Of a DNA stretch of 38,611 nt, positions 2,980-27,528 are shown piece after piece. The DNA comes from Parcubacteria group bacterium M6-OD1-3 (lineage in GTDB: Bacteria; Patescibacteriota; Minisyncoccia; Moranbacterales; UBA9337): NCBI GenBank assembly GCA_003056165.1, contig LSNR01000010.1:1-38611 (forward strand), in the 5' to 3' direction. Under the pieces are notes generated by a model. It was not told where the DNA came from, did no database searches, and saw only the letters and a program-made list of their open reading frames with translations. The stretch's first letter is position 1, and the number at the start of each line of letters is the position of its first letter. The position numbers and the translations under genes were made by a program.

Positions 2980-3681
2980 TTGAATATTATTATGGAATTA
3001 TTTCATTCAAAAAATAAACAAAATAAACAAAACTCTGGATTGAGTTCGCAGAAATATATAGATGTGGAAGAAATAAAAAACGATATTGTTGTTTTAAAAA
3101 ACAAATCATTGCGTTCAGTTTTATTGGCTTCATCTATAAATTTTGATTTAAAATCATCTGAGGAACAGGAAGCTATTATCGCTGGTTACCAGAATTTTTT
3201 AAATTCTTTAGATTTTCCAATTCAGGTAATGATTAGTTCAAAGAAGCTGGATATTGATCCATATTTAAGCTTATTAAATGATCAAAAGAAAAAACAAACA
3301 GAAGAATTAATGCGATTACAGATTTCGGAGTATTCAAATTTTGTTAAAAGTTTAACAGAGGTTTCTCAAATAATGTCAAAGCGTTTTTATGTGGTTGTTC
3401 CGTTTTATCCAATAGAAAGTCAGGAAGGTGGTTTTTTTAGTAAAATAATGGATACGTTTAATCCGAAACAGAAAATAACCGAAAATATTGAAATGTTTGA
3501 AACCTATAAGAATCAATTATGGCAAAGAGTTGATCAAATTTCTGCTGGATTAAATTCCTTAGGAATTAAAACAACAACTCTCAAGACAGAAGAATTGGTT
3601 GAACTATTATATTCCTCCTATAATCCATCAGTTTATTCAACGAGTGTAATTAAAGATTTGGATTCAGTTGAGTTGGGTTAA
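2980..3681 (+). CDS. TraC/VirB4 N-terminal-domain-like protein
   Basis: YIDVEEIKNDIVVLKNKSLRSVLLASSINFDLKSSEEQEAIIAGYQNFLNSLDFPIQVMISSKKLDIDPYL resembles the N-domain of VirB4/TraC. Directly precedes the ATPase. Confidence 0.7.
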   Translation: MNIIMELFHSKNKQNKQNSGLSSQKYIDVEEIKNDIVVLKNKSLRSVLLASSINFDLKSSEEQEAIIAGYQNFLNSLDFPIQVMISSKKLDIDPYLSLLNDQKKKQTEELMRLQISEYSNFVKSLTEVSQIMSKRFYVVVPFYPIESQEGGFFSKIMDTFNPKQKITENIEMFETYKNQLWQRVDQISAGLNSLGIKTTTLKTEELVELLYSSYNPSVYSTSVIKDLDSVELG

Positions 3682-13805: not shown

Positions 13806-14729
13806 ATGCCTGAATTACCTGAGGTGGAGACAATTCGTCGAGGTTTACGTCCGAGAATTATATCTAAGAAAATTAAAAAAATTATAATCAAAAAACCGAA
13901 TTTAATAAAACAATCCAGGCGATTTTTTTGTATGCGATTAGTAAGTAATTCTTTTATAGATGTTCAGCGAATTGGAAAATTATTGATTTTTCCTCTTGAA
14001 AAATTGAATAAGAAAAAAGAGAAACAATTTTTACTAATTCATTTAAAAATGACCGGACAGTTAGTCTATTGCGATGAAAAAAATTTTACGGCGGGTGGAC
14101 ACGCTAATTCTCGAGCGGAAGAAGAGTTATTTTTAAAAGATAAGCGAGAGGATTTTTGTCACCCGGGAAAATATACGCATATAATTTTTGAATTTGTGGA
14201 TAATTCAAAATTATTTTTTAATGACTTACGACAATTTGGTTACTTGAAAGTAGTAAATGAAACGGAATTAAAAGAAATTAAATCAAAATTTGGTATTGAA
14301 CCAGGTCAAAAGAACTTTACTTGGCAAAATTTTCAAGAAATTATTAAAGTAAAGAAGCAAGCCAATATTAAGGCGTTACTTTTAAATCAAGAAATAATTT
14401 CCGGTTTGGGAAATATTTATGTGGACGAAAGTTTGTTTGATGCAAAGATAAATCCACAACGAAAAGCAGGTTCTTTGGGAAAAAAAGAACAAAAAGCCTT
14501 GTTTAGATCTATTCAAAAAATAATCAAACAAGCCTTAAAATACAATGGCACAACTTTTAGTGATTTTATTGATGCTCGTGGAAAACGAGGAAATTTTAAA
14601 CAGAAATTAAAAGTTTATAGCAGACAAAACAAAAAATGTAAGCGATGTAAAAAAGGTGTCATCCAAAAAATAAAAGTCGCTGGTCGTGGCACACACTTTT
14701 GTCCTAGCTGTCAAAAATATCCACTTTGA
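13806..14729 (+). CDS. mutM: Formamidopyrimidine-DNA glycosylase
   Basis: MPELPEVETIRRGLRP N-terminus, HLKMTGQLVY, NDLRQFGYLK, C-terminal CKRCKKG...CPSCQ zinc finger. Confidence 0.97.
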   Translation: MPELPEVETIRRGLRPRIISKKIKKIIIKKPNLIKQSRRFFCMRLVSNSFIDVQRIGKLLIFPLEKLNKKKEKQFLLIHLKMTGQLVYCDEKNFTAGGHANSRAEEELFLKDKREDFCHPGKYTHIIFEFVDNSKLFFNDLRQFGYLKVVNETELKEIKSKFGIEPGQKNFTWQNFQEIIKVKKQANIKALLLNQEIISGLGNIYVDESLFDAKINPQRKAGSLGKKEQKALFRSIQKIIKQALKYNGTTFSDFIDARGKRGNFKQKLKVYSRQNKKCKRCKKGVIQKIKVAGRGTHFCPSCQKYPL

Positions 14730-21966: not shown

Positions 21967-22965
21967 ATGAAAAATAAGAATATAACCCTAGATGAGGGTG
22001 GAGGTGGTTTTAAATCGGCGGAGATTGTTAAAGATATTCGGCGGATTTTGAAATTTACTGGTCAGTGGAAAAATTGTGGGGATGACGCAGCCTTGTTTAA
22101 TTTAGGAAGCGGGCAAAAATTGGTTTTTACCACCGACGCTTTTATTGTTGACCCGTTATTTTTTGCCGGTGGAGATATTGGAAAAATTGCGATGTGTGGA
22201 ACGATTAACGATTTGGTGGTAATGGGTGCTAAACCGATTGGAATTTCTTTGAGCATTGTAATGGAAGAAGGATTTCCCAAAAAAGATTTTGAGGAAATCT
22301 TAAAATCAATCAATAAAATTTCTTTGCAAACGAAGGTGCCGATTGTAACCGGGGATACCAAAGTAACGGAAAAAGGCAAAATTGATAAAATTGAAATTAC
22401 CACCGCCGGGGTTGGCTTGGTGAAAAATGATGGAGTGATAAAAAATAACGGTATTAAAAATGGTGATTACATCGTTGCCTCTGGAGATTTAGGTGAACAT
22501 GCCATTACTCTTTTAGCAAAAAGATTTAATTATCAAACAAAAATTAAAAGTGATTGTCGACCGTTGATTGAAGAATTAAAAAAGACACGGAAATACTTGA
22601 ATGCTTGCAAGGATCCAACTCGTGGTGGTTTAGCGGCTAATTTGGTGGAAATGGCGGAAAAGTCGGGAGTTAAAATTATTTTGGATGAGAAAACTTTACC
22701 TTATAAAAAAGAAACAAAAGCAGTCGCGGAACTTTTAGGAATTGATATTTTTTCTTTGGCTTCGGAAGGCAGATTTATTGCATCGGTTTCGCCAAAAAAT
22801 GTTGATAAAGTTTTAAAAATTTTGCAAAAATTTAATGAAGAAGCAAAAATAATTGGTCGTGCTCAAAAAAACAAAAAAGAAAATGGCGTGTATTTAAAAA
22901 CAGAATTAGGCTCATTACGAAAAATCGAAATGCCTAAGGGGAAATTGATACCGAGGATTTGTTGA
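21967..22965 (+). CDS. hypE: [NiFe]-hydrogenase maturation protein HypE
   Basis: GDDAALF, TTDAFIVDPLFFAGGDIGKIAMCGTINDLVVMGAKP, DPTRGGLAANLVE; ends with the HypE-type PRIC C-terminal Cys. Confidence 0.95.
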   Translation: MKNKNITLDEGGGGFKSAEIVKDIRRILKFTGQWKNCGDDAALFNLGSGQKLVFTTDAFIVDPLFFAGGDIGKIAMCGTINDLVVMGAKPIGISLSIVMEEGFPKKDFEEILKSINKISLQTKVPIVTGDTKVTEKGKIDKIEITTAGVGLVKNDGVIKNNGIKNGDYIVASGDLGEHAITLLAKRFNYQTKIKSDCRPLIEELKKTRKYLNACKDPTRGGLAANLVEMAEKSGVKIILDEKTLPYKKETKAVAELLGIDIFSLASEGRFIASVSPKNVDKVLKILQKFNEEAKIIGRAQKNKKENGVYLKTELGSLRKIEMPKGKLIPRIC

Positions 22966-23063
22966 CAAAGGGTTGTTTTATGAGTAGTTTGGAGGTAGCT
23001 ATTTTACAAAAACAAAATCATGTGTTTAAAGTGCCATTAATTAAGTCAAAAGGAGGGGGAGTA

Positions 23064-23291
23064 ATGGATTATTATGATTTAGCTTGGATAGGAATAGGTA
23101 GAGGCTTCGCTGCAATATTATTCTTAGGAATAGTGTTGTATCTTATCGGTAGTGTCCGTAGTTTTTTCCGAAACCCGCGATGTCCAAATTGCGGTTCGCG
23201 AAAACAATATGATGGCATTGTTGCTGACAGGAAGCCAGCAGAATATTGTTGCGGGCAATGTGGTTATTGGTATGATAAGGCAAAATTATAA
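23064..23291 (+). CDS. Small membrane protein with C4 zinc-ribbon
   Basis: Strong SD (aaaaggaggggg) before ATG at 23064; one TM; CPNCGSRKQYD...CCGQCGYW. Confidence 0.65.
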   Translation: MDYYDLAWIGIGRGFAAILFLGIVLYLIGSVRSFFRNPRCPNCGSRKQYDGIVADRKPAEYCCGQCGYWYDKAKL

Positions 23292-23306
23292 ATTTCAGGA
23301 GGAAGT

Positions 23307-23609
23307 ATGAAAACTTTTTTCGGTAGAATTTGGGAATTTTGTTGGCATCTTGTTTTTTGGCTTCTGAGAGTGATTTTAAATAAATGGAGCATAAGAAACA
23401 AGGTTGTGATTATTGTTGTTAGCGTTGTTTGCATGGTAATGACAATAGCTGGGGTAATATTTATTGTTGATATTATGGACTTAATTACGGGGCGACAAAG
23501 CGATTGGTGGGGAAAAATTAAGTTCGGTACAGCCGTCTATTTAATGGTTGGTATAATTGCCAACGGAGCATCAATAAATGCTTGGGGAGAAAAAGCCAGA
23601 TTTCTATAA
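23307..23609 (+). CDS. Small hypothetical membrane protein
   Basis: Strong SD (caggagga) before ATG; two TM segments; ends just before a terminator. Confidence 0.65.
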   Translation: MKTFFGRIWEFCWHLVFWLLRVILNKWSIRNKVVIIVVSVVCMVMTIAGVIFIVDIMDLITGRQSDWWGKIKFGTAVYLMVGIIANGASINAWGEKARFL

Positions 23610-23630
23610 AATATATAACAGATTTATTTT

Positions 23631-23667
23631 AGCGGTTTGATTTGTTAAATTTCAAACCGCTTTTTTA
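23631..23667 (+). terminator. Intrinsic terminator
   Basis: AGCGGTTTGA-tttgttaaatt-TCAAACCGCT followed by TTTTT. Confidence 0.85.
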
Positions 23668-23699
23668 TTTGATAAACTGTAATGAAAAATAAAGGAATT

Positions 23700-23735
23700 A
23701 TGTGTATCTTTAAAGATATCTTTAAAGATACACAT
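23700..23735. repeat. Perfect 36-bp palindrome downstream of the hypF-like gene
   Basis: ATGTGTATCTTTAAAGATATCTTTAAAGATACACAT is fully self-complementary; contains two overlapping TATCTTTAAAGATA palindromes; T-rich on the + side. Confidence 0.9.
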
Positions 23736-23738
23736 TTT

Positions 23739-25076
23739 TTAAGAATTTAAATAATAAATAATTTGTCCAACGGAAAGTCCGGTGTCTCCTAAAGGGATGC
23801 TGGACCTTTTATTTGCCAAAATATTTTTGGATTGAAAATAATTGTAAATAATTTTATTATTAGAAATTCCGCCAGATAAAATAATCTTAGATGTTTCACA
23901 TTTCATATTCTCCGTCACGGCGGACCCTAGGCATATTTTATGCCTTTTAATTATTTCGTGTAACCCTTGAGCGATATAAAGTTGAGCGGTGGCGGCGATG
24001 CGATGCTTGTCGCGGTGAAGATTTTTTATAAGATATTCAAAGAGATGACTGGTATTTAATAGGAACCTTGAATCAATATTTAGGTTTTCATTTTTGTGAA
24101 AAATTACTTCCCGAGGTCGCACCTCTTCCGTCGAGAATTTTTCTATCGAAAATTCTCTCCTCCTCGAGGAACGACCTCTGTCCGTAATTTTGCTAATTTT
24201 TGGTTTTAAATCTGAATAGGGTTTAGCGGAATTTTTTTCTAATAAATCAGTGGCTTGATGTTTGTATGCTCTTTCATTTTTGGCAAAATCTAACAAAACA
24301 GAAACGGCGTCCAGAATTCTGCCGGTGCTGGAAGTTTCTTGGCAATTAAAATTTTGTTGCAGTTGATTATATAAAAGTTCAAACTGATTTCGGGAATAAT
24401 ATTTTTTAACAAAATGATAGGCTAAATTTTTTCCAAAATTATTTTTTGTTAGATTTTTTGTAATGCAGATTTGTTTATTAAGATTGTCTGAATTTATTTT
24501 TGATAGAATGCTAATTAACATTCGTGCCGGTTCGCGAATTGCCAAATCCCCGCCAATCATTATTTGGTTTTCCAAACGACCAATTCGTTCAATTCGCAAT
24601 TTTTGAGTTGCATTTTGTATATAAAAAACTTCACCGCCCCAAATTTTTTCGTCTGTCCCGTAGCCGGTGCCATCAAGGGCGACGCCATAGGTATCACCTA
24701 TTTCTTTTCCTTTTAAAATTTCCGTTTCCAAAATCTGAGAAAAAATATGAGCGTGGTGATGTTGAATTTGGATATGTTTGGCATTAAATTTTGTTGCCAA
24801 TTCTTTGCCCCAAAGAGTAGTCTTCATTTCTGGATGCAAGTCTGTCAAAATGATAGTTGGTTTGATTCCTCTTGTGGAGGCCTTGCCTCCATAAAATGTA
24901 ACTGTGCTTAGAATTGATTTTTGAAATTTGCGGAAATTATTTTCATTTAATAAATCACCGAAATTTTCTGAATAATAGATTTTTCCGTTTTTGTAAATGG
25001 AAAAATTACCAGCTGATTCAGCGCCAAGAGCTAAAATTATATCGGAATTGTTAGTTTGAATAGAAATCTTTTTCAT
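23739..25076 (-). CDS. hypF: HypF-like carbamoyltransferase, Kae1-like domain only
   Basis: LALGAESAGNFSIYKNGKIYYSENFGDL, TDLHPE, QHHHAHI, GVALDGTGYGTDEKIWGGE, GGDLAIREPARML, SSTGRILDAVSVLL, KIILSGGISNN, GDTGLSVGQ. No acylphosphatase, zinc-finger or YrdC domain in the ORF. Confidence 0.88.
   Translation of the reverse strand: MKKISIQTNNSDIILALGAESAGNFSIYKNGKIYYSENFGDLLNENNFRKFQKSILSTVTFYGGKASTRGIKPTIILTDLHPEMKTTLWGKELATKFNAKHIQIQHHHAHIFSQILETEILKGKEIGDTYGVALDGTGYGTDEKIWGGEVFYIQNATQKLRIERIGRLENQIMIGGDLAIREPARMLISILSKINSDNLNKQICITKNLTKNNFGKNLAYHFVKKYYSRNQFELLYNQLQQNFNCQETSSTGRILDAVSVLLDFAKNERAYKHQATDLLEKNSAKPYSDLKPKISKITDRGRSSRRREFSIEKFSTEEVRPREVIFHKNENLNIDSRFLLNTSHLFEYLIKNLHRDKHRIAATAQLYIAQGLHEIIKRHKICLGSAVTENMKCETSKIILSGGISNNKIIYNYFQSKNILANKRSSIPLGDTGLSVGQIIYYLNS
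23911..23944. repeat. GC-rich hairpin segment inside the hypF-like CDS (insertion C)
   Basis: GGCATA-ttt-TATGCC (23930-23944) beside CCGTCACGG/TCCG...CGGA; 16/22 GC at 23911-23932 in AT-rich context. Confidence 0.55.
24113..24178. repeat. GC-rich nested palindromic segment inside the hypF-like CDS (insertion A)
   Basis: Outer GAGGTCG (24113-24119)/CGACCTC (24172-24178); inner GAGAATTTT (24133-24141)/AAAATTCTC (24149-24157); encodes TDRGRSSRRREFSIEKFSTEEVRPRE in frame. Confidence 0.8.
24872..24894. repeat. Hairpin segment inside the hypF-like CDS (insertion B)
   Basis: TTGTGGAGGC-ctt-GCCTCCATAA, 10-bp stem with one G.T pair; encodes FYGGKASTR. Confidence 0.65.
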
Positions 25077-25134
25077 GCTATTATTATATCAGAGTTTAGA
25101 AGTTTTGTATTATAAAATAATTATATTGAGGAAA

Positions 25135-25932
25135 ATGATAAAGCAAGAAAAAAAAATAAATAAAAAGAGTAAGCCAAAAATTGCGATTGTTAGTTTGACT
25201 TCTTGCGAGGGTTGCCAGTTTGCTCTTTTGGATTTGGGAGAAAAATTTTTGGATTTAATGGGGAAAGTAGAAATGGTTGATTTTCGTTTACTGGAAGATG
25301 AGGATGATCCGGGTGATAAATTGGACATTGGGATTATTGAGGGAAATCCGATGACAAAGGAAAATGAAAAAACATTAAAAGAATTACGAAAAAGAAGTAA
25401 AATCTTGGTGGTATTAGGAAATTGTGCGGCGATGGGTGGCATACCAGAAATAAAAAATTATCAAGAAGGAAAAAATACTATTAAATATGTTTATAAATAT
25501 ATTCAAGGAATTCAAAATCCAGAAATAAAAGAGGTGGATAACTTTGTAAAAGTTGATTTTGTTTTTCCTGGTTGTCCGATAACTGGGGAAGAATTTCTAA
25601 AATATTTTCCAATATTGTTAGAGGTAGCTAAGACAGAAGATTTTAGTAAAATTCCTGAAATTGCAGACCAGCCCGTTTGTGTAGAATGCAAAGCAAAAGG
25701 AAATAAATGTTTGCTATTGGAAGGTAAGCCGTGTTTTGGTCCGATGATTTTAGGTGGTTGTGATGCAGTATGTCCGACGGCAAGAATGGGTTGTCAGGGC
25801 TGTCGTGGTTTGCGACCAAAAGGAAATGTAAAAGCGATGCGAGCAACTTTAAAAAAAATGATGACAGATGAGGAGTTTGAAAATGTGACGGAAATATTCG
25901 GTTTGAGAGATGATATAGAAGAGAGAAAATAA
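25135..25932 (+). CDS. [NiFe]-hydrogenase small subunit (group 3-like)
   Basis: LTSCEGCQFALLDLGE, LGNCAAMGGIP, FPGCPITGEEF, CVECKAKGNKCLLLEGKPCFGPMILGGCDAVCPTARMGCQGCRG. ATG 25135 preferred over 25075. Confidence 0.92.
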   Translation: MIKQEKKINKKSKPKIAIVSLTSCEGCQFALLDLGEKFLDLMGKVEMVDFRLLEDEDDPGDKLDIGIIEGNPMTKENEKTLKELRKRSKILVVLGNCAAMGGIPEIKNYQEGKNTIKYVYKYIQGIQNPEIKEVDNFVKVDFVFPGCPITGEEFLKYFPILLEVAKTEDFSKIPEIADQPVCVECKAKGNKCLLLEGKPCFGPMILGGCDAVCPTARMGCQGCRGLRPKGNVKAMRATLKKMMTDEEFENVTEIFGLRDDIEERK

Positions 25933-25974
25933 TAGTCTTAAATATCATAATATAAAACTTAAATTAGGTAAACT

Positions 25975-27237
25975 ATGCAAATAAAAATAAATCATATAAA
26001 TAAAATGGAGGGGCATGCTGGATTTATGGCAAGTGTTCTTAATGGTGATGTAAAATCGGCGAAATTGGAAGTTAAGGAAGGCATTCGTTTGATTGAAGGA
26101 ATTTTAATTGGACGGCATTATAAAGATATGCCAATTATTGCACAAAGAATTTGCGGAATTTGTCCCGTGGTGCATAATTTGACATCTATTAAGGCGATTG
26201 AAAAAGCGATGGGTGTAGAAGTTACGGAAGAAACCGTACAATTGCGGAAGCTTTTGGAATACGGACAAATTATTCATTCTCACGCGTTACATTTGTTTTT
26301 CTTGTCGTTGGCGGATTTCTTAGATATGGACAATGACTTAAAAATGGTTAAAAAATATCCAAAAGAAACAAAAATGGCAGTACAAATTAGAGAATATGGA
26401 ATGGAAATTGTAAAAATTATTGGCGGTAGAGTTATTCATCCATTGACTGATGAAGTTGGTGGATTTAAAAAAATTCCGACATCTGAAGAAATTCAAAAAT
26501 TAATCATACAAGGAGAAAAAACTTTAACAACGGCAATAAAGTTAGGAAAATTCTTTGAGAAGATAAAGATTCCGGAATTTGAAAGAGAAACGGAATATAT
26601 TTCTTTAGGTAAAGACGGAGAATATGCAATTTATGATGGAGATGTCACATCTAATAGAGGTTTGCATATTCCAGTTAATAAATTTGAAAAAAATTTTGAG
26701 GAGCTACAACGACCGAGAGAGATTGTTAAGCGAGTAAAATCTGATGGAAAAACCAGTTATTTGGTAGGAGCTATTGCACGGATAAACAATCAATCAGAAA
26801 AACTTTCTCCTCAAGCAGAAAAATATTTTAAGTCGTTGGGATATAAAATGCCAGACTATAATCCTTTTCACAATATCTTATATCAAATGGTGGAAGTAAT
26901 TCATTTCATTGAAGAATCTTTAAAATTATTGAAACTCGTTGGACATAGTTCGCTGGAAAATGCTTTAACTGGAGAATATAAAGTTAGAGCAGGAACAGCT
27001 TCAGCAGCAGTAGAGGCGCCACGCGGAACACTTTATTATTATGTTGATATAGATGAAAATGGGTATATAAAAGATGCAAATATTATTACACCAACAGCCC
27101 AAACTCTTTCTAATTTAGAAGATGATATTAAAGAATATTTGCCATTAGTAATGGATTGCACCAAGAAAGAGCGAACACAAAAATTACGAGGATTTATCAG
27201 AGCTTATGACCCCTGCATTTCGTGTGCCGTACATTAA
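25975..27237 (+). CDS. [NiFe]-hydrogenase large (catalytic) subunit (group 3-like)
   Basis: L1 motif RICGICPVVH and C-terminal L2 motif DPCISCAVH, immediately followed by TAA. Confidence 0.95.
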   Translation: MQIKINHINKMEGHAGFMASVLNGDVKSAKLEVKEGIRLIEGILIGRHYKDMPIIAQRICGICPVVHNLTSIKAIEKAMGVEVTEETVQLRKLLEYGQIIHSHALHLFFLSLADFLDMDNDLKMVKKYPKETKMAVQIREYGMEIVKIIGGRVIHPLTDEVGGFKKIPTSEEIQKLIIQGEKTLTTAIKLGKFFEKIKIPEFERETEYISLGKDGEYAIYDGDVTSNRGLHIPVNKFEKNFEELQRPREIVKRVKSDGKTSYLVGAIARINNQSEKLSPQAEKYFKSLGYKMPDYNPFHNILYQMVEVIHFIEESLKLLKLVGHSSLENALTGEYKVRAGTASAAVEAPRGTLYYYVDIDENGYIKDANIITPTAQTLSNLEDDIKEYLPLVMDCTKKERTQKLRGFIRAYDPCISCAVH

Positions 27238-27258
27238 TTCATAAATCGTATAAAACAT

Positions 27259-27528
27259 ATGCATGATTTTTTATTAGCGAAGGAAGTGATTGATGAGGTG
27301 TTAAGAATAATTGAAGAAAACAACTTGAAGAATATCTCTGATGTTGAGTTAGAAATTGGGACAATAAGTATGGCTCATGATGGACTTTCGGAGCATACTG
27401 AAGATATAAGTATTGAAAATTTAAAGTTTGGCTTAGATAGTATTTCTAAAAATACTCTTTTGGAAAAAGTTATCTTTAAAATAAAAAAGGTTGAGGGTGA
27501 ACATTGGAAAATAAAATCAATTTTATAA
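27259..27528 (+). CDS. HypA-like protein lacking the Zn-binding CxxC domain
   Basis: MHDFLLAKEVIDEVLRIIEENNLKNISDVELEIGTISMAH... resembles the HypA fold; contains no cysteines; 21 bp after the large subunit. Confidence 0.65.
   Translation: MHDFLLAKEVIDEVLRIIEENNLKNISDVELEIGTISMAHDGLSEHTEDISIENLKFGLDSISKNTLLEKVIFKIKKVEGEHWKIKSIL

Follow-up and report, generated by a model that had tools for sequence, protein, structure and literature searches.

The palindromic block that lies within the hypF-like gene described here is most probably a copy of a mobile palindrome, small and non-autonomous, that has recently spread in the source genome, is patchily distributed elsewhere and is tolerated in frame within coding sequence. 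Both its mobility and its in-frame tolerance are well supported; what was observed directly are the dispersed copies, their open in-frame reading, the absence of the element from orthologues, the conserved stems, the use of multiple frames and orientations, and the patchy distribution.

In the window (the whole stretch of 38,611 nucleotides that was analysed, contig C13), the palindrome is found where the initial annotation had placed it: on the minus strand GAGGTCG starts at 24178 and CGACCTC stops at 24113, and the inner pair AGAATTTT/AAAATTCT is present. The block was also correctly described as GC-rich in an AT-rich gene (50% G+C versus 34% for the gene and 31% for the window). Its RNA fold is predicted at −33.4 kcal/mol, against −21.2 ± 2.7 in dinucleotide shuffles (z = −4.45, 0 of 200 as good). 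The limits originally proposed hold for the conserved core (24113..24178, minus strand; ten copies in the genome), but the palindrome itself extends further, to 24100..24191 on the same strand (ca. 92 bp). Within the core, a 22-nt 5′ arm (GAGGTCGTTCCTCGAGGAGGAG, 24157..24178, minus strand) that is exact in six other copies and has two mismatches in the elp3 copy is followed by the variable inner stem AGAATTTT/AAAATTCT and a 3′ arm (CGACGGAAGAGGTGCGACCTC, 24113..24133, minus strand), exact in five other copies and with one mismatch in the miaA copy. Outside it the arrangement is AAAATTAC-GGACA-core-GGGAA-GTAATTTT, i.e. a 5×5-nt internal loop (GGACA/GGGAA) separates the core from an outer stem (AAAATTAC/GTAATTTT). 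Each arm contains a small REP-like hairpin (GAGG-TCGTT-CCTC and GAGGT-GCG-ACCTC).

As had been claimed, the reading frame is kept through the block, which a single uninterrupted ORF of 445 aa (23739..25076, minus strand) reads as the peptide TDRGRSSRRREFSIEKFSTEEVRPRE. The description of this gene as HypF-like stands insofar as it matches HypF_C and HypF_C_2 (PF17788, PF22521) and TIGR00143 (hypF, 2.2e-60), but only the C-terminal, Kae1-like part of HypF is represented and not the full-length protein; 17 orthologues were found in relatives. Positions 21967–27528 of the window form a hydrogenase and maturation cluster in a reduced Patescibacteria genome, with an AIRS-family protein (HypE-like), the truncated HypF (Kae1-like), small- and large-subunit-like hydrogenase proteins and HypA among its products.

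The expectation that many copies would be dispersed in unrelated genes was borne out. The source genome (G000), that of a tiny, uncultured member of the Patescibacteria, is an incomplete assembly of 26 contigs and 818 kb, and the sequence searched was rebuilt from stretches to 817,128 bases (G+C 31.9%), with contig 26 lacking 637 bases. Searches by DNA, by arm and by covariance model recovered ten copies, nine of them genic, in frame and stop-free: three in leuS (C12), two in alaS and one in cca (C11), and one each in miaA (C23), elp3 (C10) and hypF. The tenth lies either right at the beginning of a glycosyltransferase-like ORF or immediately before it; this ORF was named from its sequence only, and the host genes were identified by NCBIfam and Pfam matches. 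Cores in this genome measure 49–68 nt, and the hypF copy reaches 92 nt with its outer stem. The element is read in differing frames and in both orientations (e.g. EVVPRGG..., RGRSSRR..., RGRTSSV...), five of the six frames being open in most copies. Since several frames and both orientations are used, what is repeated is the nucleic acid and not a single conserved peptide. All nine occurrences of CCTCGAGGAG in the genome fall within an element, and no convincing isolated half-element was found in G000. Two of the LeuRS copies (leuS_b and leuS_c) have cores identical across 68 nt, an identity that suggests recent local copying.

A DNA search of the genomes of 56 relatives, nine of them from the same family, recovered no copy. 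None of the 17 orthologues of hypF in relatives has the element, and neither of the two outcomes that the initial annotation held against a mobile element was observed, i.e. the block is not conserved in hypF orthologues and does not occur only once in the genome. The insertion point in hypF does correspond, as proposed, to a stretch of variable length in relatives, between LKPKI and L.TT.LFEYL. At the leuS_b and leuS_c sites the element is likewise missing from all aligned orthologues of relatives. Alignment to solved structures places 28 extra residues of AlaRS between chain residues 370 and 373, and in the CCA-adding enzyme 46 residues replace three between 160 and 164; in Elp3 and MiaA the extra residues fall between stretches aligned to solved structures. 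We did not obtain a clean nucleotide-level pair of empty and filled sites with a target-site duplication, the relatives being too diverged and two attempts with congeners yielding no clean junction.

Several of these protein sites are occupied in relatives by other peptides, which we take to be repeat-derived. The hypF site carries other repeat-like peptides, the leuS_b site CHSELDSES...IPDQVRDD and the leuS_c site PSSPFKKGGEP, and at the leuS_a site there is either a SEAKQS...SAPRND repeat or, in G008, a whole PD-(D/E)XK nuclease domain (PF13366). Reused in this way by unrelated repeat-like peptides, the same protein sites look like insertion hotspots. Both the LeuRS of the source genome (L257:1540-4815) and that of G008 (L258:253-3870) have in addition a serine-hydrolase domain (PF06821) inserted after the editing-domain match.

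Comparison across copies indicated how much of the hairpin belongs to the element. Pairing reaches 94% in the stem closing the core, where 34 double-change cells were counted. In 41 copies aligned with a fixed 5×5 internal loop, the outer arms were 55% Watson–Crick paired, compared with 27–31% when one side was slid and 43% when flanks were re-paired within genomes (0 of 5000 as high as observed); a second measure of outer-arm pairing agrees. Because the outer arm and loop are nearly alike in the hypF, leuS_a and distant G325 copies, we take the outer arm to be part of the element. Because each copy's flanks pair, we had considered that the outer arms might be inverted target duplications, and set this aside on the strength of that same similarity; inverted duplication of the target could still apply to the copies whose outer arms differ. 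In the genome G060, a nested copy (C16, ca. 3252–3307) has the internal-loop motif CCTCGAGGA/GGGAAGAGG on two successive levels, which gives the impression of a hairpin enlarged by repeated nesting.

Beyond the source genome, related copies were found in about nine other, scattered genomes (G057–G060, G325, G111, G438, G291 and G467). Of 380 sampled genomes from the phylum, only the source genome and two others had the element, and a search among the relatives of G325 added G438, G456, G291 and G467. Scanning the species genome collection by pattern revealed true relatives in four MAGs, JAHIYV01, JAHJSY01, JAGMBS01 and JABGQE01 (17, 5, 6 and 7 model search matches, respectively), of which the first three are titled Patescibacteria or Paceibacterota and the last simply "bacterium". 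Some of the weaker model matches, four in G059 in particular, have the look of simple REP-type hairpins and not of the element. Most of the 95 pattern hits in the genome collection are chance matches in G+C-rich coding DNA, and six pattern hits in viral contigs, which we examined as possible viral hosts of the element, look like chance matches.

Copies in the other carriers are mostly intergenic. Those in frame were in leuS and hisS of G057, a lamin-tail/PKD protein of G060, a RecJ-like protein, the C-terminus of a CTP synthase and one ORF of G325, and the G057 leuS copy occupies the leuS_a site in the opposite orientation. In one genus (g62), the model search recovered five copies in one species, at least seven in another and none in a third, and the loci fetched align with each other essentially over the element alone. 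That the two congeners have no clear insertion site in common and the third has no copy suggests recent spread. One G325 gene may share its insertion with G438.

As to how such a distribution could arise, an element with a core of about 50–70 bp (about 90 bp with the outer stem) would spread through the genome, and its insertions would survive in coding sequence wherever the site can accommodate added residues, their length leaves the frame intact and the frame used contains no stop. The ribosome would then translate the element, giving by the alignments some 20–45 added residues, which most likely form a surface loop in a host protein that is presumably made and active. Such insertions would be neutral selfish DNA, and not beneficial. 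The element might move as a single-stranded hairpin, e.g. by an HUH/Y1 transposase or by template switching at replication. We consider an HUH enzyme acting in trans plausible, with replication-based template switching of the hairpin as the alternative.

A rival explanation makes the element a REPIN, in which a RAYT (Y1/HUH) transposase acting in trans moves two inverted REP hairpins; here it would essentially be a bacterial REP system that tolerates coding sequence. The small REP-like hairpin in each arm fits this explanation. So does the occurrence of RAYT-like Y1 transposase domains (Y1_Tnp), which were present in all seven element carriers searched and in 8 of 19 non-carriers (Fisher p ~0.01, hand-computed), and other REPs of the genome are also read in frame (YGGKAST in hypF, and REPs within RAYT-like genes). 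However, a RAYT as the cognate transposase is not supported: of 22 RAYT-like genes that we inspected in carriers, not one has the element at its flanks, and the majority lie amid other palindromes. The three in G000 (C10:22170-22916, C17:56037-56738 and C5:29009-29653) are each found among their own, different small palindromes, and at the 19 RAYT loci of other carriers no match to the element model reached a convincing score. The long nested hairpin with 5×5 internal loops also differs from the usual REP shape. We regard a REPIN origin as possible but on the whole unlikely. The RAYT-like genes on C10 and C17 have a palindrome read in frame within the transposase gene itself (LRGLSSQS and NGGKASM).

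Eight of the nine genic copies, and five of the six host genes, in the source genome act on tRNA. Among 50 random, length-weighted ORFs used as a control, five do so (lysS, ileS, pheT, tgt and gatA), two of the seven drawn ORF groups, one of them containing leuS, having been left out. By hand calculation, the chance of at least five tRNA genes in six would be ~5e-5 at a rate of 10% and ~2.5e-3 at its upper limit of ~22%, the comparison being post hoc. Because the comparison is post hoc, the control incomplete and the bias weaker in the other carriers, we treat the concentration in tRNA genes as a lead. That this family of mobile palindromes ends up preferentially in tRNA-acting enzymes, at sites reused by unrelated repeats and whole domains in related Patescibacteria, is a tentative and rather doubtful proposition; if it were true, the translation machinery of this large bacterial group would continually be supplied by selfish DNA with new surface loops, some of which might contact RNA.

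The same concentration, together with the stable and conserved fold, could be read as the mark of a functional RNA structure, a regulatory or processing hairpin retained in the mRNAs of tRNA-related genes. This appears improbable, given that the position in the gene varies, one gene has three copies and both orientations occur; moreover, the element is missing from relatives' orthologues, copies are mostly intergenic in other carriers, and other repeat-like peptides occupy the same protein sites in relatives. Even less credible is that the ribosome skips the hairpin, so that it never becomes protein. Hairpins in the coding sequence of an A+T-rich genome do recall the Magnusiomyces system, where translational bypassing of palindromes in mitochondrial genes has been reported (cited in a passage of PMC6649704), but bypassing would not require that all nine genic copies be in frame and stop-free, and for the frame alone this would happen by chance in about 1 of 20,000 cases (one third to the ninth power). 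Finally, an ordinary lineage-specific loop expansion or low-complexity sequence, with the repeats as coincidence or vertical relics, would suit the variability of the hypF site in relatives but is refuted by the dispersed copies (exact copies of the 22-nt arm occur six more times, in three other genes) and by the recurrence of the family in distant genomes, and we give it next to no weight.

The mobile palindrome that we favour has its closest parallel in the Rickettsia palindromic elements (RPE), as the initial annotation had noted; the resemblance holds as an analogy, in that the element works like an RPE, but not as membership, given the several frames and both orientations. According to the passages on them in PMC2229807 and PMC10969869, RPE are dispersed palindromes, genic and intergenic, that are inserted in frame in conserved proteins (Ogata et al. 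2000), and the Wolbachia palindromic repeats (Ogata et al. 2005) are cited alongside them. Like RPE, the present element is a small dispersed palindrome forming a long stem-loop (ten copies, fold z −4.45, paired stems), with genic and intergenic copies, all nine genic ones in frame, and relatives have no copy at the hypF site or at LeuRS sites b and c. Unlike RPE, which measure ~105–146 bp (PMC2229807) and of which each family encodes a conserved peptide (PMC10969869), it has a core of only ~50–70 bp (~90 bp with the outer stem) and, depending on the copy, is read in several different frames and in either orientation. It also belongs to a different phylum, and its genic copies in the source genome are concentrated in tRNA-acting enzymes. 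No RPE model was among the NCBIfam hits, although the release used may hold none. For one RPE host protein, gmk, activity with the insert has been reported (PMC2229807).

Other known systems share some of these features. With REP/REPIN sequences the element has in common the REP-like mini-hairpins, their inverted arrangement and the RAYT-like genes in all carriers searched; it differs in its absence from the flanks of the RAYT-like genes inspected and, REP/REPIN being extragenic, in the genic position of nine of its ten copies in G000, though in other carriers most copies lie between genes. MITEs with coding potential (ERIC/RU-1, the 107-bp Correia element and YPAL/RU-2; PMC2229807) are also non-autonomous and have known in-frame fusions; here, however, no terminal TA or target-site duplication was established, and no parental insertion sequence or linked transposase was found. 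The coding palindromes of Nematomorpha mitochondria (PMC6649704) similarly form hairpins within coding sequence, but are long perfect inverted repeats, in contrast to an imperfect repeated family with conserved arms. Among the papers listed by our search, which was limited to an open-access library, none described a palindromic or MITE-like element from Patescibacteria.

In-frame protein-coding palindromes have so far been known mainly from Rickettsia and Wolbachia and viewed as an oddity of intracellular Alphaproteobacteria. That an apparently unrelated family does likewise in Patescibacteria, and has repeatedly entered single essential enzymes such as LeuRS and AlaRS, suggests convergence, and reduced genomes may tolerate such insertions generally. 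Judging from the gene sequences, the enzymes of at least six genes, mostly tRNA-acting, should bear extra loops encoded by selfish DNA. The reused protein sites offer a natural map of insertion-tolerant positions in aminoacyl-tRNA synthetases and other enzymes, and how palindromes move becomes a question testable across several genomes.

The hypF gene contains a second in-frame palindromic insertion, of a different family (TGGAGGCaagGCCTCCA, 24875..24891, minus strand), within the peptide YGGKAST; this insertion of seven residues is missing from 17 of 17 orthologues, and its palindrome is also found around and inside the RAYT-like transposase gene of contig C17 (56037–56738). At a third variable site (peptide ICLGSAVTENMK) there is an imperfect palindrome, CTCCGTCACGGCGGACC, at 23900–23945 of the window, where the length differs among relatives too, some having other repeat-like peptides. 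Nine other dispersed palindromic families of the genome were taken as a control; of their 65 cases 64 fall outside predicted genes, although predicted ORFs cover ~84% of the genome. Dispersed palindromes of other kinds in this genome (TCATTCCGGA..., GTAACGTACCATGGTACGTTAC, TTTCCCACGGCCGTGGG and TGTGTATCTTTAAAG...) are nearly all intergenic. Contig C1 also has a CRISPR-like array (ca. 14117–14567); its 36-nt repeat, ATCTACAAAAGTAGAAATTTGATAGGTCTATTTGAG, resembles Cas12a repeats when read as the reverse complement.
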